Part shown: piece after piece, positions 11,652-27,936 of the stretch
Position numbering within the stretch: the first letter of the stretch is position 1
How the letters are laid out: every line of letters starts with the position of its first letter
IMG/VR virus record: IMGVR_UViG_3300010400_000045
Span: 1 to 27,936 of that record
Direction: 5' to 3' (one strand)
DNA: 27,936 bases
From: a virus
Program-made: the position numbers and the translations under genes
The notes under the pieces: model-generated
Seen by the model: only the letters and a program-made list of their open reading frames with translations
Databases searched by the model: none
What the model was told of the DNA's origin: nothing

Positions 11652-12506
11652 CTACGCGCGCTCAGGCATGGAGTCTACAGCCGAGTTCAACCACCGGTCC
11701 CGCCACTTGGGCCACGACGCCCTCAGGTCGACCTCCGGCTCGTTCAACTGGTTCTCCCCGAGATTGGTCCAGATCACCTTGGGAGCATCATTCGCGATGA
11801 CGTCATGGACCCGGATGGCGGGGACTTTCAGCAATCCCGCCAGAACCACCGGGGCCGAGCCGCAGCCGATCATGGCCCGCGAAGCCCCGAGGTAGTTGGC
11901 CAGCTTCATGAAGTCCCCGTCGTCCGCGAATTCCGTCCAGTCCGGATAGGTTCGCGTCCCGATCTCTCTGTCCCTCTCATCCCCGACAAAGACAATCTCA
12001 TCGAACAGCTTCTCCAGTTCACCCCGGATGCCTGACAGGAACTTCCAGAACACGGGCGTATTGTGGGTATGGGGACACACGGGCATCCCGTGGAGGATGA
12101 GCCGGTTCTTCTTTCCCGAAGTCTCGACCTTCAAGCTCGGCTCGTTGGCCAGAACGTCGGGCTTGACCGACAGGTTCAACTTCGTCTGGTTCATGCACTC
12201 GAGCGTCAACTGGCGTACCGGAAAGCCACGGAGCCCCATGTGGACGATGGTCCGGTCCTGATGCGCTGACGTCGGGAGGTCGAAGTGCCACGGCTGACCT
12301 CCACAGGAGTAGTTCTCCACTCCTTCAATCAACTTGACTTGATTGACGCATGGTTGCGCCTCGAGTAACGGCACCAGCGGTCCGCAAGTACCGACGTCGA
12401 GCCATGCGTCAAACTTCTCGCCCGTCTTCTTCGCCCAGTGATAGGCCACGGGCCACTGATGCAATGCGTCTCCCATCTTACCGGGAAACGTGAAAGTCAT
12501 GCTCAT
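11652..12506 (-). CDS. GT9 / heptosyltransferase-like GT-B glycosyltransferase, 284 aa
   Basis: The first residues FTFPGKMGDALHQWPVAYHW match the 'G.iGD.....P......' opening of GT9 (ADP-heptose:LPS transferase-like) proteins. The second half contains a nucleotide-site-like stretch, FMKLANYLGASRAMIGCGSAPVVLAGLLKVPAIRV, corresponding to the 'L..l...a.l.ig.dSg..HlA.alg.P' segment of the family; here the usual Ser/His are replaced by GCGSAPVVLA. It is short for GT9 (usually about 320-350 aa). It is the last gene of the sugar block, joined to the upstream gene by an ATGA overlap. The likely activity is sugar transfer; donor and acceptor cannot be read from sequence. Confidence 0.65.
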   Translation of the reverse strand: MSMTFTFPGKMGDALHQWPVAYHWAKKTGEKFDAWLDVGTCGPLVPLLEAQPCVNQVKLIEGVENYSCGGQPWHFDLPTSAHQDRTIVHMGLRGFPVRQLTLECMNQTKLNLSVKPDVLANEPSLKVETSGKKNRLILHGMPVCPHTHNTPVFWKFLSGIRGELEKLFDEIVFVGDERDREIGTRTYPDWTEFADDGDFMKLANYLGASRAMIGCGSAPVVLAGLLKVPAIRVHDVIANDAPKVIWTNLGENQLNEPEVDLRASWPKWRDRWLNSAVDSMPERA

Positions 12507-13207
12507 ACCGCCGCCTCCGCGTAGAGTTCGATGGCCGCCTTTATCTTGTCGATGGCCTCATGTCTTCCAAGTGCCGCCCACATCGCAACAGACCTCGCGT
12601 CGTTGTGGATGTGGTAGATCTGGTACATCAGCTTCCCGACGTCAGTAAGGCTCGCGTCCTGCATGTCTCCCGTGGGTAGAGCCTCATGCCAGACCTTGAA
12701 CTCTTCGGGTCCTGCGAAGGCCATCTGCGTCGCTTCTCCCACGAGTTGCAGAGCCACGTCCCAGTAGGAGTGGTGGGTATCGAGCATACAGAACGAGCCC
12801 ATGACGTCGACCCACTCCGCCGTCGCCCACGGGAAGTCCATCCTCGGGACCTTGGAGCTTGAGAACGGAGCAATGAGCCCGATACCGCCCTTGAAAGCAT
12901 GTTTCGCCTGTAGCACCCATGAATCCCACCCGGGTGTCTCGAACAGGCAATCGTCCGTCGCGGCTCCGTAGGCTTCGTACCCCGGGCACTTGCGCCAGAT
13001 GTGGTTCAAGGAGCGGCACTGACCGACCCGTGGACCGACGACCATCTTGAAATCGCCGGGCAGGTTCTCGTAGTCGGCGACCTGGTCGTCGTCCACGTAG
13101 ACCACGATGTCCGCGTTGTCAGCAGTCCGCTCCACAGACTGGACCATCTTCACCAACCGGTGAGGCCTCCCCCGACTGGCGCACATCACCAAGACCTTGC
13201 CACTCAT
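12503..13207 (-). CDS. GT-A-like glycosyltransferase, paralogue 1 of 4, 234 aa
   Basis: N-terminal nucleotide-binding strand KVLVMCASRGRP (4-15), then a metal-binding-type acidic motif YVDDDQ (37-42), then a second acidic loop ATDDCLFETPGWDSW (83-97), and a late Trp-His (VWHEAL). This order (SRGRP, DxD, TDD-GWD-W, late His) is shared by all four paralogues in the block and fits a GT2-like GT-A fold. The C-terminus is helical and longer than in paralogue 2. Both ends have ATGA overlaps. The function inferred is transfer of one sugar of a multi-sugar glycan. Confidence 0.75.
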   Translation of the reverse strand: MSGKVLVMCASRGRPHRLVKMVQSVERTADNADIVVYVDDDQVADYENLPGDFKMVVGPRVGQCRSLNHIWRKCPGYEAYGAATDDCLFETPGWDSWVLQAKHAFKGGIGLIAPFSSSKVPRMDFPWATAEWVDVMGSFCMLDTHHSYWDVALQLVGEATQMAFAGPEEFKVWHEALPTGDMQDASLTDVGKLMYQIYHIHNDARSVAMWAALGRHEAIDKIKAAIELYAEAAV

Positions 13208-13854
13208 GGGTACATGGCCTCTCTCAGCTTGTGGACCACCTCGGGGAGTTTCAAAGCGACGTAGGTGAAGAACGACTGCGCGTCCTTCTCCCGGATGTCG
13301 GTGTTTGAGTGCGGGAGCCCATTGTGCGTGATGGAAAACCCGGGCTCAGGAGCGTGGACGATGGCCGTCATCTCGCCTATCAGACCCGTCAGGATGGGCC
13401 AGCAGAAGTGGTAAGTCTCGGGACACGCATACCAACCCACTACGTCAATCCAGTTCCTTGAGACGAAGGGCATGTCCACATGCTCACCGAGGTTGTGTCT
13501 TGGGGAGACGACGGCAAGACGATTGGGGAAGTTGTTCATCGCAGCTTGGACCCAGACATCCCAATCCTTGTCGTTCAGAGTCGTGTCGTCGGTGATGATG
13601 CCGTAAGCACTGTAATCCGGGAACTTCTCCACCAGATGATTCAAGGCTGCGACAGGACCGATTCTGGAGCCGTAGACAACCTGTGAGCCCGGAGGGTTGA
13701 CGCCGTAGAACTCACGTTGGTCCTCATCCACGTAGGCCAAGACATCGGCTTTCATGGCGGTCTTCCGAACCGACGCCACCATGTCCCGGAACGGCTCGGG
13801 CCTGTCTCTTGTGGGACAGAGCACCGCGACTCGCCCGTTACCCAAGGAGGCCAT
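13204..13854 (-). CDS. GT-A-like glycosyltransferase, paralogue 2 of 4, 216 aa
   Basis: The ATG at 13854 is chosen because GGAGG lies just upstream; a longer reading would run deeper into the FkbM-type gene. It overlaps that gene by 17 bases. The protein has CPTRDRP (13-19), YVDEDQ (41-46), ITDDTTLNDKDWDVW (87-101), a D.P......W....GW motif in the middle, and a late SITHNGLPH (His-Asn) motif. That His in GT-A enzymes often completes metal binding. Family usually needs a nucleotide-sugar donor and a divalent metal. A C-terminal helix follows. Confidence 0.75.
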   Translation of the reverse strand: MASLGNGRVAVLCPTRDRPEPFRDMVASVRKTAMKADVLAYVDEDQREFYGVNPPGSQVVYGSRIGPVAALNHLVEKFPDYSAYGIITDDTTLNDKDWDVWVQAAMNNFPNRLAVVSPRHNLGEHVDMPFVSRNWIDVVGWYACPETYHFCWPILTGLIGEMTAIVHAPEPGFSITHNGLPHSNTDIREKDAQSFFTYVALKLPEVVHKLREAMYP

Positions 13855-14479
13855 ACTGCCTCCACACGTACCCATCGTTGTCCTGACTCCTGAACACCCG
13901 TTCATAGCCCAAAGGCAACAGAACGTCGTCCAGAGCCCCTTGGTCCCATGATTCGACTAGCACGACCTTGGGCCGCCACCGCTTCAGGTCCAGTCCTGCC
14001 AAGACGTCTCGCTCAGTGCCTTCGGTATCGACGCACAGGGCATCCAGTCTCGGGAACTGGAGGTCGGCCATCAGGATCTCAAGCGTCGTCACGGGAACAA
14101 TGGTCGTCAGCCACTTCTCCCCCACCTGGTCCTTGAACTTGGGATGCTCCTGAGGCCTCAAGGACGAGAACGCCTCGATGTTGTCCAAGTGGATGTGGAA
14201 CGGACTTTCCTTGGCCGGCTTGTCCGACACCGCGCAGATACGGTGAAGGTTCCGCGTTTCCTTGAGCTTGTCGTTGTAGTACGGGTTGGCTTCAACGGAC
14301 AGAACGGTCCAGCGCCAGAAGTGCTCGAGCGTGTAGGTGGAGTTGGTGGACATGCCATCTGACGCCCCGACGTCGATGCAATACCCCCTGAACCCGGGAC
14401 GGAACTGGTCACGTATCCAGTCCGACAACTGGGCATTCGGGTGGTAGAAGACGTGCCGTATCGGAGGGGCGAGGGTCAT
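13838..14479 (-). CDS. FkbM-family SAM-dependent methyltransferase, 213 aa
   Basis: The SAM-binding motif CIDVGASDGMSTNS lies at 34-47, the second motif SVEANPYY at 61-68, and the FkbM hallmark CVDTEGTERDVLAG at 149-162. The last corresponds to the 'KIDvEG.E..vL.G' box. A C-terminal strand VVLVESWDQ follows, as usual in the family. FkbM-type enzymes often O-methylate sugars or polyketides; next to glycosyltransferases a sugar methylation is the natural inference. The protein is close to the family's usual length. ATGA overlap at its start. Confidence 0.85.
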   Translation of the reverse strand: MTLAPPIRHVFYHPNAQLSDWIRDQFRPGFRGYCIDVGASDGMSTNSTYTLEHFWRWTVLSVEANPYYNDKLKETRNLHRICAVSDKPAKESPFHIHLDNIEAFSSLRPQEHPKFKDQVGEKWLTTIVPVTTLEILMADLQFPRLDALCVDTEGTERDVLAGLDLKRWRPKVVLVESWDQGALDDVLLPLGYERVFRSQDNDGYVWRQYGLLG

Positions 14480-15165
14480 GTGAGGGCTTCCACCGGCTGC
14501 TTGGCCCGCAACAGTTCCAGAGCACGCTGGTAGCGGTTCGTGGTGAAGAACCCGTGGAGTTGACGCAAGTCCTCAGCACTCTTGTCAATGTCGGTGGGTT
14601 CCTTGCGGTCGTGCTCCACGAACATGACTTCGGGAGGGAGACGAACCAGCGAGGTCGCCTCCCCCAAGGCCTCGATGATGCTCGGCCAGCCGAAGTGATT
14701 CAGGGCCGGGTAGGCAATCCAGCCCAGACGTTCAATCCATTCGTCCGAGACGATGGCAAAGTCCATGAACGCGCCTTGAGAATGGGCCGGACTCATCGCC
14801 CAGACCTTCCCGAGACGTTCGGCTTCGTAGACGATGGCTTCGTCCCAACCCCGGACCGTGAACCGACAGTCGTCCACGAACAGCCCGAAGCCAAGATAAG
14901 TCCCCGATTCCTTCCGTGCCGCGCGGGTCAGGGCTTGCGCTGCGCCTACCGGACCACACCTCGGGCCGTAGGCAATCTTGAACGCCCCGGCCCCGACGAT
15001 CTTGGGCCTCGCCGCCTCGTACAGCTCCCGTTCATCGGAATCGACGTAGACGTAGATGTCTGCGAGACGTGAGGTGTTGAAGATGGACTGGACGGCTTGG
15101 AACAGGAGTTCAGGACGTCCTCTGCTGGGAATCAGGATGGCGATGCGCTTCTCGGTATCGCTCAT
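14476..15165 (-). CDS. GT-A-like glycosyltransferase, paralogue 3 of 4, 229 aa
   Basis: The ATG at 15165 overlaps the previous stop as ATGA, so a reading seven codons longer was rejected. Motifs: ILIPSRGRPELL (10-21), YVYVDSDERELY (38-49), GFGLFVDDCRFTVRGWDE (92-109), and late FVEHDRK in place of His-Asn. The 'Y.D.DE' and 'VDDC' acids are kept, so metal binding looks intact, but the last motif has diverged most in this copy, which may mean a different acceptor. A Ser/Pro-rich AMSPAHSQGAFMDF precedes the D.......W segment shared by the paralogues. Confidence 0.75.
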   Translation of the reverse strand: MSDTEKRIAILIPSRGRPELLFQAVQSIFNTSRLADIYVYVDSDERELYEAARPKIVGAGAFKIAYGPRCGPVGAAQALTRAARKESGTYLGFGLFVDDCRFTVRGWDEAIVYEAERLGKVWAMSPAHSQGAFMDFAIVSDEWIERLGWIAYPALNHFGWPSIIEALGEATSLVRLPPEVMFVEHDRKEPTDIDKSAEDLRQLHGFFTTNRYQRALELLRAKQPVEALT

Positions 15166-15848
15166 ACGGCGCTCGTCACCGGCCACGACAGACCTCCGAC
15201 AGACACCGTCAAGCCGCGGGTGCTCGCCTCCACCGCCTTACGGAGCATCGCTCGGTGGTCGTCCTTGTGCCACGCATACCATTCATAGAACTTGCGCGAG
15301 TCTGCTGAGAAGGTGGGGGACTCAGCGCCGACCTGGTTGTGGCGGATGTGGAACTTGTCTTGCGGGGCCTTGAACAAGCAGATGCCGTCCGACAGTGCAT
15401 CGATCACAGAAGGCCACGCATAGTGGAACAACTCCGGATGGATGAACCACCCCACCGCCTCCACGAACGCCTTCGTGACGAGCGGCATGTCGACACGATG
15501 GACACCCGAGTCGGCGCAGCGGGGAGAAACGACCGCAATCGGCCACACCGAAATGACTTCCTCCACCCAATCATCCCAACCCGGGGTCATGACCACGGAA
15601 TCGTCGGTCATGGTCGCCACCGCATCGTAGCCATCGGTGAACGCCTTCTTGGCGAGCGCCGCCCATCCGCGCGCGGGACCTACTCGAGGACCGTGGAACA
15701 CCTCTGCTCCCCCCATATCTGGGTACTCGGGAGCATCGGTGTCCATGTACGCCATGACGTGGGCCTTGGAGGTACGGTTGACGGAACGTACCGCTGTCAG
15801 GAACAGGTCCTTCCGGTCCCGGGTCGGGATCAACATGGCTATCTTCAC
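15162..15848 (-). CDS. GT-A-like glycosyltransferase, paralogue 4 of 4, 228 aa, GTG start
   Basis: The GTG at 15848 forms a GTGA overlap with the preceding methyltransferase stop and places KIAMLIPTRDRKDLF directly at the N-terminus, as in the paralogues. A longer in-frame reading is only an overlap artefact. Further motifs: AYMDTDAPEY (33-42), TMTDDSVVMTPGWDDW (79-94), SPRCADSGVHRVDMP, WFIHPELFHYAWP and a late HIRHNQV. All motifs shared by the set are present, so this is a good candidate for an active GT-A enzyme. It is the first glycosyltransferase of the block in transcription order. Confidence 0.75.
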   Translation of the reverse strand: MKIAMLIPTRDRKDLFLTAVRSVNRTSKAHVMAYMDTDAPEYPDMGGAEVFHGPRVGPARGWAALAKKAFTDGYDAVATMTDDSVVMTPGWDDWVEEVISVWPIAVVSPRCADSGVHRVDMPLVTKAFVEAVGWFIHPELFHYAWPSVIDALSDGICLFKAPQDKFHIRHNQVGAESPTFSADSRKFYEWYAWHKDDHRAMLRKAVEASTRGLTVSVGGLSWPVTSAV

Positions 15849-17104
15849 AGCACCAACTCGATGTTGGGAAGTGGGAACACAAGTGTGGTGCCGGAGTTCA
15901 AGAGGTCTCTCTCGCGTTTGACGAACTCGTCCCGGAACGCCCACGGCAGCGCGAACAGGAACCGGGGGTTGTCTGCGCGCATCTCGTCCTCCGACACCAC
16001 GTCCAACCACGTCCCCGCCATCTTCAACCCATGCTTGGCGGGATTCCTGTCTGCGATGGCCCTGAATGCTCCGGGGCAATCGAGGTACTGGAGCAGGCAG
16101 CAACCCTTGGTACTGGCCCCGTAGAGCCAGAGACCTCGCGGGGTCTCCAGAGGCCCCCTCAGGAGGTCAATCATCTGCGTCTTCCACTTCCACACCCGCT
16201 GCGAGAACAGCGTCGCGGAGCGTTCGCTCACTCCAACGTGGTCCCCCAGATGCCACGACGCTGCCGGAACCGAGGCCTTCTGCGCGAATACCCGCATCGA
16301 GCCGCCGTTCACCTCGTTGTACGTGACTCCGACGATACGGAGCCCGTGCTTGCGGTAGAGCTTGTCCAGACTCGGCAAGTCGTAGTAGCAGACGTGTTCA
16401 TGGCAGATGGCGTCGAAGGCGTTCCGCTCCATCATCGTCGGCGCGTCGTTCAACTGGTTTATCCAGACACCCGTGGGGCTCAAGACTTTGGCGATGTCCG
16501 CGACGAAGTCACTCGGGTTGTCCAAGTCGTAGAACATGGCAATCGTCGTGACGACGTCACAGGCACCCTTCCGCTCCGTGGCCATCAAACAGTCATGCTT
16601 GGCGGAGAAGTAGTCGGAGATGACGTGGTCGGAGACTTTGTGCAGGTCCTCCTTGAAGTTCCGCGCCGGCTCACACGCGATGCGACGGAACCTGTCAGGA
16701 ACCCTAGACAGCAAGTAGCCATCGTTAGCCCCGATGTCCAGCCACGTACCCTCCTGCACGAACTCAGCAGCGGAGTTGACAACGTCGTTCAAGGCATCGC
16801 GCATCGTCTGGTTGACCGAACTCCGGTACCAGAAGTTGCGATAGAGCAGGTCGCGATTGACCGTGACCGAGAGTTGCAGCAGTCCGCAGTCGGAGCAGCG
16901 CACGAGTTCCAGCGGGGCTTTGGGCAGGTCCAAGTCGGGGATGGCGGTGAAGTTGACCAGGTACTGGTTCCCGAGCGAGAGCACAGCGTGAAGTTCCCCG
17001 CTGTCGCAGACACGACAGGTCGTCCTCTCCGCCCAGACATCATTCTTCAGGACCTCGGTCAGCACAGCGCCCTCCCTGACGGTTGCCTTCACGTGCGTCC
17101 TCAT
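15845..17104 (-). CDS. Zinc-binding sugar C-methyltransferase-like protein, 419 aa
   Basis: Three-part layout of the NDP-sugar C-methyltransferase family. First, an N-terminal zinc site with CRVC (30-33) and CSDC (70-73). Second, a central SAM domain with WLDIGANDGYLLSRV (about 121-135) and the family-specific AICHEHVCYY (232-241), matching the 'HEH..Y' catalytic-type box. Third, a C-terminal Rossmann-like domain with WLYGASTKGCCLLQYL (326-341). The family adds a methyl to a keto-sugar nucleotide carbon (for example deoxysugars with a branched methyl). The length is typical. The start at 17104 overlaps the terminase stop as ATGA; a reading eleven codons longer was rejected. Together with the FkbM-type gene it suggests an unusual methylated sugar. 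Confidence 0.85.
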   Translation of the reverse strand: MRTHVKATVREGAVLTEVLKNDVWAERTTCRVCDSGELHAVLSLGNQYLVNFTAIPDLDLPKAPLELVRCSDCGLLQLSVTVNRDLLYRNFWYRSSVNQTMRDALNDVVNSAAEFVQEGTWLDIGANDGYLLSRVPDRFRRIACEPARNFKEDLHKVSDHVISDYFSAKHDCLMATERKGACDVVTTIAMFYDLDNPSDFVADIAKVLSPTGVWINQLNDAPTMMERNAFDAICHEHVCYYDLPSLDKLYRKHGLRIVGVTYNEVNGGSMRVFAQKASVPAASWHLGDHVGVSERSATLFSQRVWKWKTQMIDLLRGPLETPRGLWLYGASTKGCCLLQYLDCPGAFRAIADRNPAKHGLKMAGTWLDVVSEDEMRADNPRFLFALPWAFRDEFVKRERDLLNSGTTLVFPLPNIELVL

Positions 17105-18831
17105 CGGATTGGCTCCCTCGGTACGAGTTCTCTCCAACTCCGTACATCGTCACTCTCGAAATCGTCCAGATTGACGCCATCCATGTGAATCGGGGTCGCA
17201 CCCCTGTCCCACGGCGTCCGCTCCTGCTGCCGTCTCATCGGCTGGTACAACTCGGTCTGGAAGGCATCGGAGTGGGCATCGGCCCAGTCAATCTTGGTCC
17301 GCGGATTCACGGCGTACTGGCCAATCTGCGCCATCTGGGCAGTGAGCCTATCCATGCCCGGCGCACCCTTGACCCAACGCACATGCCCATCGACCCAGAA
17401 CGTCGATGCTGAGTGTAGCCGTTCGTACTTCTTCGTGGCTCCACGTTCAAACTCGATGAACCTAGGCATGGGCTCGTTCACGTCAGCGAAGAAGTTGACC
17501 AAGTTGAGACGCCACGAGTCCTTCTTGCCGGCACGAGTCTTCTCGTCCGTGATGGCGATGATATGGAAGCCCTGACGTCGATACCGCTGGACAGTCGAGA
17601 CCAACAACTTCCCGAAGTCCTCAGCCCTGAGAGTCGCGTTGCCATGAGCTTCGATGACGTAAACGTCCCCCGAACCGTTCCTCGGGTAGCCATGGACAAC
17701 CAATACCGTCTCATCCTTGCCCGTTATCTTGGTGCCGTCCGAGAAAGCAGTGTCGCAGCAGATGGCGAACCGAAGGGCCGACCACGGCACGTCCTTCTTC
17801 TCGATGGCGCACTGGTTGATTTGGTCACGAGTGATGGGGTTGAGTTCGGAGACCGAGGGGTCGTTCATGATCTGCGAAGCGTACCGCAACGGTTCGGACT
17901 TGGCGTACCGCTTCAACCGGTCTTCTGGCCAGACCAGTGGAGTCGTGGGGTTCCCGGAACCATCTCTCCCAGCCAAGAAGTAGACGTGAATCATGCCGTC
18001 CGGGTCGATGGGGATGGAATCGGTCTGCATCCCTGAGACTGAAGCCACTCCGAGGCTCTGGAACCCGACACCGAAGTGGTCGCCCGGGTCATACCGGGTC
18101 CCCGGCCAGACCACCAGACCGTTACCCTGAACCACGGGAATGAGAGAGGTAATCTGGGAGTTGACGGCCTGCAGCCAGTTGGTGTCAGTGGTCAGACGTT
18201 CGTAGGAGATGGGGTCGTCGTAGAACAGGGCGTCTGGATGACTTCCCGTGATGGAGGTCTCGACGCCGAAGATAATCATGGACGGGTCCTGCCGCGACGT
18301 GTTCTTGCGTCCGGTATGGACAATCTCCCTTCCCGTCCACTTGCGTGCCCCCGTAGACCAGTCCCCGTAGAGCTTGGCCCAGAGGGCTGAATCGTCTGAA
18401 CCATCGAGAACGGCCTTCATGCCCTCGAGCATCTTCTGGGCAAGACCCTCCTTCTCCGCCCCGGTGGCCGTGGCGATGTCAGGGTCACGCAGATGGAGCC
18501 ACAACTGGCCGGCGCGGGTGATCATCGTGGTCTTGCCGATCTCTCGGTGGACCAGGATAGCCAGGTGCTTCTGCCGCTTGATGCCCTGCTTGCGCCACAT
18601 CATCCACTCATCGACATGATGCTGGAACCAGCGAGCCATGGGTTCATGGACGTCGGGGTCGATCCAATCCTTGCCCTTAGGGTTCAAGCCAGCACCGAAG
18701 GCGTAGAGGAAGAAGGACCAGAAGTCCTGCCGGCAGAAATGACGTAGCAGGGCCATCTCTTCGATGGGGTCCCAGCCTCCGGGCTTACGCGGCCGGTCCA
18801 GCAGGTTCAGGTTGGTTAGATGTCTCGACAT
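17101..18831 (-). CDS. Large terminase subunit (packaging ATPase-nuclease), 576 aa
   Basis: ATPase part: Walker A-like LVHREIGKTTM (about 93-103) and Walker B-like DALFYDDP (about 200-207). Nuclease part: RFAICCDTAFSDGT (about 354-367), IAITDEKTRAG (about 426-436) and IDWADAHSDAFQTEL (about 514-528), giving the acidic triad expected in the RNase H-like domain. The size is typical. The ATG at 18831 was chosen as it has AGGAAAAGA directly upstream; starts at 18861 or 18885 would extend the overlap with the upstream gene. Even so the N-terminus overlaps that gene by 47 bases. By family it cuts concatemeric DNA and pumps it into the procapsid through the portal. Its end overlaps the first sugar gene by ATGA. 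Confidence 0.88.
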   Translation of the reverse strand: MSRHLTNLNLLDRPRKPGGWDPIEEMALLRHFCRQDFWSFFLYAFGAGLNPKGKDWIDPDVHEPMARWFQHHVDEWMMWRKQGIKRQKHLAILVHREIGKTTMITRAGQLWLHLRDPDIATATGAEKEGLAQKMLEGMKAVLDGSDDSALWAKLYGDWSTGARKWTGREIVHTGRKNTSRQDPSMIIFGVETSITGSHPDALFYDDPISYERLTTDTNWLQAVNSQITSLIPVVQGNGLVVWPGTRYDPGDHFGVGFQSLGVASVSGMQTDSIPIDPDGMIHVYFLAGRDGSGNPTTPLVWPEDRLKRYAKSEPLRYASQIMNDPSVSELNPITRDQINQCAIEKKDVPWSALRFAICCDTAFSDGTKITGKDETVLVVHGYPRNGSGDVYVIEAHGNATLRAEDFGKLLVSTVQRYRRQGFHIIAITDEKTRAGKKDSWRLNLVNFFADVNEPMPRFIEFERGATKKYERLHSASTFWVDGHVRWVKGAPGMDRLTAQMAQIGQYAVNPRTKIDWADAHSDAFQTELYQPMRRQQERTPWDRGATPIHMDGVNLDDFESDDVRSWRELVPREPIR

Positions 18832-26321: not shown

Positions 26322-26339
26322 TGTGTCAAGATGGACACA
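26322..26339. promoter_or_regulatory. Dyad 1, TGTGTC-N6-GACACA
   Basis: Perfect 6-base arms around AAGATG. On the minus strand it contains TTGACA. It is one of three sites with identical arms and identical spacer length in 146 bases, as expected of operators for one dimeric repressor or activator. Confidence 0.6.
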
Positions 26340-26368: not shown

Positions 26369-26384
26369 ATGCAACATGTTGCAT
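26369..26384. promoter_or_regulatory. 16-bp perfect palindrome
   Basis: ATGCAACATGTTGCAT is fully self-complementary. It is embedded in a wider set of GCAAC/GTTGC elements from 26356 (GCAAT, GTTGC, TATGCAAC), so the whole 26356..26391 stretch could form alternative cruciforms. It is different in sequence from the TGTGTC dyads and so probably binds a different protein. Confidence 0.55.
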
Positions 26385-26424: not shown

Positions 26425-26444
26425 CTGTGTCCCGGAAGACACAG
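26425..26444. promoter_or_regulatory. Dyad 2, CTGTGTC-N6-GACACAG
   Basis: Perfect 7-base arms around CCGGAA (itself nearly symmetric). Inner six bases of each arm equal those of dyads 1 and 3. Centre is 23 bases from dyad 3, near two helical turns, so binding on nearly the same face of DNA is possible. Confidence 0.6.
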
Positions 26445-26447
26445 TGA

Positions 26448-26467
26448 GTGTGTCAATGGAGACACAC
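26448..26467. promoter_or_regulatory. Dyad 3, GTGTGTC-N6-GACACAC
   Basis: Perfect 7-base arms around AATGGA. As in dyad 1 the minus strand carries TTGACA inside it. Same arms and spacer length as the other two copies. No binding protein gene can be assigned within the window. Confidence 0.6.
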
Positions 26468-26643: not shown

Positions 26644-26672
26644 TTGACGTGACGATGGGGAGGGCATAGAGT
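26644..26672 (+). promoter_or_regulatory. Rightward promoter
   Basis: TTGACG (26644..26649), 17-base spacer, TAGAGT (26667..26672). The spacer ends in GAGGGCA, as in the leftward promoter, and the -10 fits the actinobacterial TAGRRT pattern. The first start codon with a ribosome site (GGAG) is at 26724. The pair of matching promoters points away from each other across the dyad cluster. Confidence 0.65.
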
Positions 26673-26723
26673 GTGTGTGACGGGCGCTACCACGGCGCTC
26701 GAGTCCACGAAATGGAGACCCCG

Positions 26724-26783
26724 ATGCCAACGACGAAGCACACCTGTGGCGGGCCGGTGTTCGGCAAGCGCACGGCAGGCTGC
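26724..26783 (+). pseudogene. 5' part of split Cys-rich gene (gene 1)
   Basis: Twenty codons with two cysteines (C8, C20), ending inside the left inverted repeat. The matching 3' part is on the opposite strand at 26860..27026. Joined through the repeat in the same codon phase (ACG GCA GGC TGC in both), they give a 70-aa protein with nine cysteines: C8, C20, C23, C49, C51, C58, C60, C63 and C69. It carries KHTCGGP, then CPRCDEL, then YCRCATTPLGCKC, then CHRYPYC, a clear small zinc-binding-type protein. Confidence 0.7.
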
Positions 26784-27149
26784 GCGCTTGCGCCTCGATA
26801 CTGGCAGCGAGCGCTTGATAGCGGTTCGTGCTCATGGCCCCGTGTCTCCCTTCCCCGTGTCAGTCGCAGTACGGATAGCGGTGGCAGGTGTCGCACTTGC
26901 AGCCGAGCGGCGTGGTCGCGCAGCGGCAGTAGTCATCGGCGCGGAACGTGTCTGGCTTGCGGATGTTCCAGCGGACCGGAGCTGCACCGGCGCTCAACTC
27001 GTCACAGCGCGGGCAGCCTGCCGTGCATCACGCAAGGCGAGTTTCGGGGTCAGCCGTTGAATGTCGGAGCGCGCATCGAAGTCTCGCGCCGCTACCGTCG
27101 CGTCCTCAATGTCATCATGCGCCACGCCAGCGCGCGGGGGCCGAAGTGA
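26724..27149 (+). CDS. Hybrid reading frame through the inverted segment, 141 aa as given
   Basis: In the orientation given, the frame starting at the ATG at 26724 (GGAG upstream) stays open for 142 codons. Residues 1-20 (MPTTKHTCGG, then PVFGKRTAGC) are gene-like. Residues 21 to about 100 read the reverse of two other coding pieces and look like noise (Ser/Arg/Cys-rich). The end (ITQGEFRGQPLNVGARI onward) is gene-like again. So this is most likely not a natural single protein but the ends of two genes joined by inversion of the part between. Whether the hybrid is ever translated in nature depends on whether the inversion is real. Confidence 0.4.
   Translation: MPTTKHTCGGPVFGKRTAGCALAPRYWQRALDSGSCSWPRVSLPRVSRSTDSGGRCRTCSRAAWSRSGSSHRRGTCLACGCSSGPELHRRSTRHSAGSLPCITQGEFRGQPLNVGARIEVSRRYRRVLNVIMRHASARGPK
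26770..26783 (+). repeat. Left 14-bp inverted repeat of the flipped segment
   Basis: GCACGGCAGGCTGC, exact inverse of 27013..27026. It is part of both split genes' coding sequence. Outside bases differ (GC-AAGC versus TGAT side), and inside the copies differ by a two-base shift before CGCGCT. Confidence 0.85.
26770..26835 (-). pseudogene. 5' part of split 62-aa gene (gene 2)
   Basis: Reads leftward from an ATG at 26835 (MSTNRYQALA, then ASIEAQARSL, then PC), ending in the left repeat. In the flipped orientation it would follow the stop of gene 1 by 24 bases, with AAGGGAGA upstream as ribosome site. It joins in frame with 27027..27149. Beyond the repeat, the minus-strand continuation looks like non-coding sequence. 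No family is recognised. Confidence 0.65.
26860..27026 (-). pseudogene. 3' part of split Cys-rich gene (gene 1)
   Basis: From the right repeat leftward the frame reads GCPRCDELSAGAAPVRW, then RKPDTFRADDYCRCATT, PLGCKCDTCHRYPYCD and a TGA at 26860. It has no start codon of its own on this strand; a stop lies directly upstream of the repeat (27028..27030). Its composition and Cys spacing show it is coding. It completes the piece at 26724..26783. Confidence 0.7.
27013..27026 (-). repeat. Right 14-bp inverted repeat of the flipped segment
   Basis: GCAGCCTGCCGTGC on the plus strand, exact inverse of 26770..26783. The distance between the copies is 229 bases. Confidence 0.85.
27013..27149 (+). pseudogene. 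3' part of split 62-aa gene (gene 2)
   Basis: Codes ITQGEFRGQPLNVGARI, then EVSRRYRRVLNVIMRHA and SARGPK before a TGA at 27147..27149. Basic and probably helical at the end. It lacks an own start and joins in frame with 26770..26835 after flipping. The following gene starts at a GTG overlapping this stop (GTGA). Confidence 0.65.
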
Positions 27150-27346
27150 ACCCCGAACGCTTCGGCATCGAATCCGCCTCTGCTCTCGCCATGCTGGCGG
27201 TCGCCAATGGCATCATCCGCAAGCGCGATCGGTTCGACTTCGCCTGCTGGCTCGCCGACACGTACCGCGACGAAGACGACGAATACGTGCGCGGCTTGAA
27301 CCTGTCCACGCTGCACGGGCGCTTTCTCGAATCGCGGGCCGCATGA
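27146..27346 (+). CDS. Small unknown protein, 66 aa, GTG start
   Basis: The GTG at 27146 overlaps the previous stop. The sequence NPERFGIESASALAMLAVA, then RDRFDFACWLADTYRDEDD and LSTLHGRFLESRAA is well composed, helical and acidic in the centre. ATGA overlap with the next small gene. The upstream in-frame extension runs into the flipped segment and looks non-coding. Function unknown. Confidence 0.65.
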   Translation: MNPERFGIESASALAMLAVANGIIRKRDRFDFACWLADTYRDEDDEYVRGLNLSTLHGRFLESRAA

Positions 27347-27437: not shown

Positions 27438-27936
27438 ATGAACGCCACGACACCGAAGCACGCGACGCCCACGAGCCTCGCGGGGCTGCTCGCTAGGCAC
27501 GGAGCCTGCGCCGACGCCCGCGAGTGGGCGAAGCCCTACGCCACGCTACAAGAGGCATGGGGCGCCTGCGAGCGCGCCGACTGGATGCTGTGGCTGCTCG
27601 TGCGACTCCACGGCTACAAGGGACAGGTCGTGCACGCGACCGTGGACTGCGCGGAGACGGCGCTGCCGATCTACGAGAAGCGGTACCCGAACGATTCGCG
27701 GGTCCGCGACTTCCTCGCGGTCACACGCCGGTGGGCGGACGGCAAGGCGACGTTGGACGAACTGCGGGAGGCGCGCAGCGAATGTTACGCCGCCGCCGCC
27801 GCCGCCGCCGCCGCCGTCGCCTACGCCGCCGACGCCGCCGCCGCCGCCGTCGCCTACGCCGCCGCCGCCGCCGCCGCCGCCTACGCCGCCGCCTACGCCG
27901 CCGCCGCCGCCGCCGCCGCCGACGCCGCCGCCGACG
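27438..27936 (+). CDS. Imm5-like protein with alanine-repeat tail, cut by window edge
   Basis: ATG at 27438 with AAAGGA upstream; the frame is open for 166 codons to the edge. The 5' half has the Imm5-like pattern EAWGACERADWMLWLLVRL (about 38-56) followed by TVDCAETALPIYEKRYPND and VRDFLAVTRRWADGKATLDE. 'W.AC.R.DW.LWL' is typical of Imm5-domain proteins, common in phages and known from polymorphic-toxin immunity predictions. From residue about 117 it becomes nearly pure Ala with Tyr, Val and Asp at intervals (YAAAAAAAAAVAYAADAAA), probably a long helix. The function in phages is unproven. Confidence 0.7.
   Translation, partial: MNATTPKHATPTSLAGLLARHGACADAREWAKPYATLQEAWGACERADWMLWLLVRLHGYKGQVVHATVDCAETALPIYEKRYPNDSRVRDFLAVTRRWADGKATLDELREARSECYAAAAAAAAAVAYAADAAAAAVAYAAAAAAAAYAAAYAAAAAAAADAAAD
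27787..27936 (+). repeat. GCC-codon repeat coding poly-Ala/Tyr helix
   Basis: About 150 bases of nearly pure GCC with TAC, GTC and GAC at irregular steps, continuing to the window end. Only one frame gives the Ala/Tyr/Asp series of the Imm5-like protein. Such repeats change length by slippage and are hard to assemble, so the exact copy number here should be taken with care. Confidence 0.85.

Follow-up and report, generated by a model that had tools for sequence, protein, structure and literature searches.

A 257-bp inverted segment between 14-bp inverted repeats splits two small genes of a viral contig

Near the right end of a viral contig, two small genes appear to be split by a DNA inversion, and the question arises whether this is a natural switch, a mutation of the phage or a product of amplification and assembly. 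The window, meaning the whole stretch of DNA analysed, is a 27,936-base viral record of IMG/VR, probably a genome fragment. Its leftward genes include those for SU10-like portal, major head and distant terminase proteins, and a short rightward operon, which contains the inverted segment, begins at about 26.6 kb. Several small glycosyltransferase- or methyltransferase-like proteins, recognised by eye, are encoded at 11652-17137 between the portal and terminase genes; such a row inside a phage structural block is unusual.

The 257-bp segment at 26770-27026 is bounded by GCACGGCAGGCTGC on the left and GCAGCCTGCCGTGC on the right, which are exact reverse complements of 14 bp, and the match grows to 17/18 when the arms are extended. 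This pair is the longest inverted repeat within 1 kb anywhere in the window, and dinucleotide shuffles gave expectations of 0.11 (within 1 kb) and 0.03 (within 260 bp) for inverted repeats of at least 14 bp. The 229-bp spacer between the arms spans parts of two genes, A and B, each of which, as the DNA is given, is divided between the two strands, half on each. Reversal of the segment made both genes complete. Gene A then reads METPMPTTKHTCGGPVFGKRTAGCPRCDELSAGAAPVRWNIRKPDTFRADDYCRCATTPLGCKCDTCHRYPYCD up to its stop codon, with nine cysteines and 70-74 aa, and gene B reads MSTNRYQALAASIEAQARSLPCITQGEFRGQPLNVGARIEVSRRYRRVLNVIMRHASARGPK up to its stop codon (62 aa), preceded by the ribosome site GGGAAGGGAG. 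Gene A has two candidate starts, ATG at 26712 (74 aa) and ATG at 26724 behind GGAG (70 aa), the latter being the probable one. In the reversed form, the stop of gene B overlaps the GTG of gene C (27146) as AAGTGA. Apart from the inversion, both genes are intact, free of stops and frameshifts. The original prediction had described the exact repeats, the completion of the two proteins with a ribosome site and an overlap with the next gene, and the splitting of each gene across both strands, and on all of these points it was confirmed.

Features of the inverted segment and its surroundings, in the orientation given
Feature	Position	Strand	Basis
Predicted promoter, sigma-70-like (TTGACG-17-TAGAGT), upstream of gene A	26644..26672	+	1 found, 0.2 expected
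Hybrid open frame, 158 codons, given orientation only, ends on gene B stop	26673..27149	+	
Gene A 5' part (METPMPTTKHTCGGPVFGKRTAGC)	26712..26783	+	frame, homologues
Left arm, 14-bp inverted repeat	26770..26783	+	sequence
Gene B 5' part (MSTNRYQALAASIEAQA)	26784..26835	-	frame in reversed form
Gene A 3' part (PRCDELSAGAAPVRW...YPYCD, stop)	26860..27012	-	frame, homologues
Right arm, 14-bp inverted repeat	27013..27026	-	sequence
Gene B 3' part (..SLPCITQGEFRG...GPK, stop)	27013..27149	+	frame in reversed form
Gene C, GTG start overlapping gene B stop	27146..27346	+	open frame

The region upstream of the operon carries several candidate control elements. Just upstream of the gene A homologue of contig L002, in the same place as the predicted promoter of the window, a promoter-like TTGACT-17-TAGATT was recognised by eye. 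Three exact TGTGTC-N6-GACACA dyads (26322-26339, 26426-26443 and 26449-26466; 0.01 expected by shuffle) sit in the intergenic region that separates the gene A operon, read rightward, from a replication-initiation gene read leftward, and likely represent a cluster of repressor operators. L002 has the dyad at 1811 (exact), 1739 (two mismatches) and 5950 (one mismatch). A perfect 16-bp palindrome, ATGCAACATGTTGCAT, lies inside the dyad region of the window at 26369-26384.

Relatives of gene A were then used to determine its normal order. A degenerate pattern, CxGPxFG...GCPRC, detected relatives in IMG/VR, but this pattern presupposes an intact junction; 8-residue patterns of protein A gave no match in IMG/VR. 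The fair test was provided by two IMG/VR scans with patterns ending before the junction, which are blind to the residues downstream. All 18 true relatives from the first scan run on through CPRC or CIRC into DEL, REL or a close variant. The second scan gave 34 matches, two of them unrelated, and the remaining 32 are likewise uninterrupted, with CPRC or CIRC followed by DEL, REL or a close variant. No inverted relative was found in either scan, in collections that may omit near-identical records. The check named in the original prediction, a search for the uninterrupted protein in related phages, thus came out in favour of the reversed form at the left junction (32/32), and the order given here, looked for as the normal gene of homologues, was found in none of the 32.

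Gene A family members in IMG/VR contigs follow the pattern TTKHTCGGPVFG[RK]xTxGCPRCDELxAGAxPVxW. The reversed gene A aligned with that of L008 over 44 aa at 70%, and about 51 nt at 26974-27024 are 84% identical, in reverse orientation, to gene A of L030. For the hybrid protein read from the order given, good alignment stopped at the junction cysteine in most matches. An exact 20-mer match in the Rhizobiales contig L049 was taken as chance, its translation being devoid of the gene A start motif. Among family members, the protein of L015 shows a weak similarity to the C-terminal part of DpdA/queuine tRNA-ribosyltransferase (PF23859, E 0.009, below the cut-off; phrog_1279, E 0.018), and gave no match in 50,697 GenBank phage records. 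No near-identical contig was found, and the ancestral order of gene A is known from distant homologues only. By this homology the normal order at the left junction is settled, with the reversed form as the predicted functional one. Since all gene A homologues cross the junction as in the reversed form, the order given is, as judged from sequence, the derived, broken form, and the functional order would be promoter, gene A, gene B and gene C. With the order restored, gene A becomes one more member, its C-terminal half diverged, of a small family of cysteine-rich phage proteins, for which the GenBank phage collection gave no match.

A search of 26 viral records and of the GenBank phages gave no relative of protein B, nor did its 8-residue patterns match IMG/VR. 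Because gene B has no detectable relative, homology does not bear on the right junction, for which frame continuity, the ribosome site and the stop overlap are the evidence that points to the reversed form.

In the order given, the left piece of gene A is in frame with the right piece of gene B, and together they form an open hybrid frame of 145-158 codons. Its openness for 158 codons could suggest that the order given is native and the hybrid a real gene, but this reading is very improbable, since every gene A homologue reads through the junction in the opposite orientation and codon usage of the inner frame of the hybrid is poor. Against a model built from the long genes of the contig, the reversed frame of the inner segment scored best at -8 bits, as compared with a range of -22 to -59 bits for the five other frames and -34 bits for the inner frame of the hybrid. 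Genes A and B themselves score near zero against this model, and because early genes depart from the main codon usage of the contig, codon usage alone is weak support for the reversed frame. Antisense frames of 229 nt within the genes of the window are open in 25% of cases; frames this long being open so often, the hybrid is judged to be accidental, and its openness is no evidence of a gene. A match of the hybrid to phrog_6555 (E 0.0028) was rejected, as the profile is promiscuous and also matches 6 of 14 control genomes.

A natural invertible switch was one of the two explanations offered in the original prediction. As a programmed switch, it would have a site-specific recombinase of the phage or its host flip an intragenic segment, turning genes A and B on or off and leaving the 145-158-aa hybrid in the off state; a conserved site, a recombinase and both states would then be expected. 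This explanation gains from a repeat that exceeds chance expectation in length and falls within the 10-40 nt described for the flanks of invertons (PMC11892184; 14 bp exact, 17/18 extended), and from the open hybrid frame. The relatives, however, speak against it. At the corresponding site of gene A homologues, the longest inverted-repeat partner is 5-9 bp against a background mean of about 7, the 14-bp partner occurring in this contig alone. Because the relatives do not carry more than this background, the 14-bp repeat looks like a product of chance. Both arms are ordinary coding sequence, encoding RTAGC in gene A and SLPC in gene B. A hybrid frame would be open in one case out of four anyway, the phrog_6555 match is weak, and no relative was inverted. 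Neither a serine (PF00239) nor a tyrosine (PF00589) recombinase was found in the record, itself a fragment, or in 10 relatives, two of them of about 42 kb, in agreement with the original remark that no recombinase gene is visible; a flipping enzyme might still be encoded by the host or by an unsequenced part of the phage. Of the marks of an inverton, the central one of which would be two orientations in the population, the flanking repeats are present, and a recombinase and conservation of the site in relatives were both looked for and not found. We consider the programmed switch unlikely. Its fuller version, a reversible switch of the early operon that would exchange two small proteins for one hybrid, with the downstream genes translationally coupled, under a host or unseen phage recombinase, appears slightly less probable still.

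We favour, as the probable explanation, double template switching at an inverted repeat that arose by chance, which would have inverted the segment without loss either in the phage or in vitro. A growing strand whose end lies in one arm would anneal to the opposite arm, on the complementary strand or on a folded-back one; the polymerase would then copy the loop backwards and switch back at the second arm, so that 257 bp would be inverted without loss between arms that may have arisen by chance within the coding sequences of A and B. Such double polymerase template switching is the most likely mechanism. The inversion has arms longer than 9 bp, and its reversal restores both genes. The arms are predicted to pair in single-stranded DNA, all 14 pairs being formed in both the MFE and the centroid structures, although the whole predicted fold of the segment was no better than shuffles (z 0.64). 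At 229 bp the spacer is long, a feature that disfavours the process. Because the inversion is the only damage to either gene, the event should be recent, reversible or technical; we infer that it was recent. Within the favoured explanation, the weight divides about evenly between an origin in the phage, which is possible, and an origin in vitro, during amplification or library making and then fixed by the assembler, which is slightly more credible.

Two narrower readings overlap with double template switching, and both the chimeric-molecule branch of the one and the whole of the other are also counted within it. That the inverted order never existed in any phage, and was produced by hairpin chimeras in amplification or library making or by a path error of the assembler, is a serious prospect but falls somewhat short of even. 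In multiple displacement amplification (MDA), joins at short complementarity are for the most part inverted (PMC1855051). The site lies in a GC-rich, presumably thinly covered stretch some 900 bp short of the contig end, which is located inside a GCC-rich repeat and suggests difficult coverage; this end (27438-27936) encodes an Imm5-like domain (PF21805, E 1.2e-11) and then a long Ala/Tyr/Asp repeat coded by the GCC-rich DNA. The two genes have no other defect, which fits their being truly intact, and the IMG/VR scans showed the order given in no other record. Common assemblers use k-mers longer than 14 bp, so that an assembler alone would not make this inversion. Two matched junctions are also required; as MDA chimeras are for the most part single joins with deletion, a perfect two-ended inversion would need two switches or two chimeric molecules, a point that weighs against the favoured explanation as well. 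In addition, a coding-model scan of the inverted repeats tested detected no further gene-splitting inversion in the window or the loci, though such a scan is blind to the A/B case itself owing to the atypical codons of early genes; its top candidate, L045 4402-4715, was rejected, the gene being intact in the order given. The other reading, a sporadic mutant that arose by template switching during replication in some phages, with A and B knocked out and C coupled to the hybrid, remains tentative. It agrees with a perfect conservative inversion at an inverted repeat, with arms predicted to fold in single-stranded DNA, and with a hybrid frame that still ends on the gene B stop at the start of gene C; the long spacer weighs against it, as does the high frequency that a mutant must reach to become the consensus.

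If double template switching took place in the phage, chance inverted repeats of about 14 bp could invert hundreds of bases, knocking out or restoring two early genes. If it was technical, the locus would be a documented case of an artefact that splits genes in public viral contigs, and annotation pipelines would report from it a hybrid protein that does not exist.

Three known systems can be compared with this locus. Invertons have flanking inverted repeats of 10-40 nt (PMC11892184), and intragenic invertons were described by Chanin et al. 2024, as cited in PMC11868660. Short inverted repeats around a coding segment and alternative reading frames are shared with these systems, but here no recombinase was found, no second orientation was seen and the repeat is not conserved. 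Among chimeras formed in MDA, 85% are inverted joins, made where short stretches of no more than 21 bp are complementary, and most are single joins with deletion (PMC1855051). The present case is similar in that nearby segments are joined in inverted orientation at short complementary stretches, and differs from the typical chimera, with its one junction and deletion, in having both junctions and no loss of sequence. In yeast genes, template switching between short inverted-repeat arms leads to reversible inversion of the spacer, observed only where the arms exceed 9 bp (PMC8604942). The yeast spacers are of a few bp only, whereas 229 bp across two genes are involved here; as in yeast, the arms are longer than 9 bp and lie inside coding DNA, and the inversion is conservative and in principle reversible.
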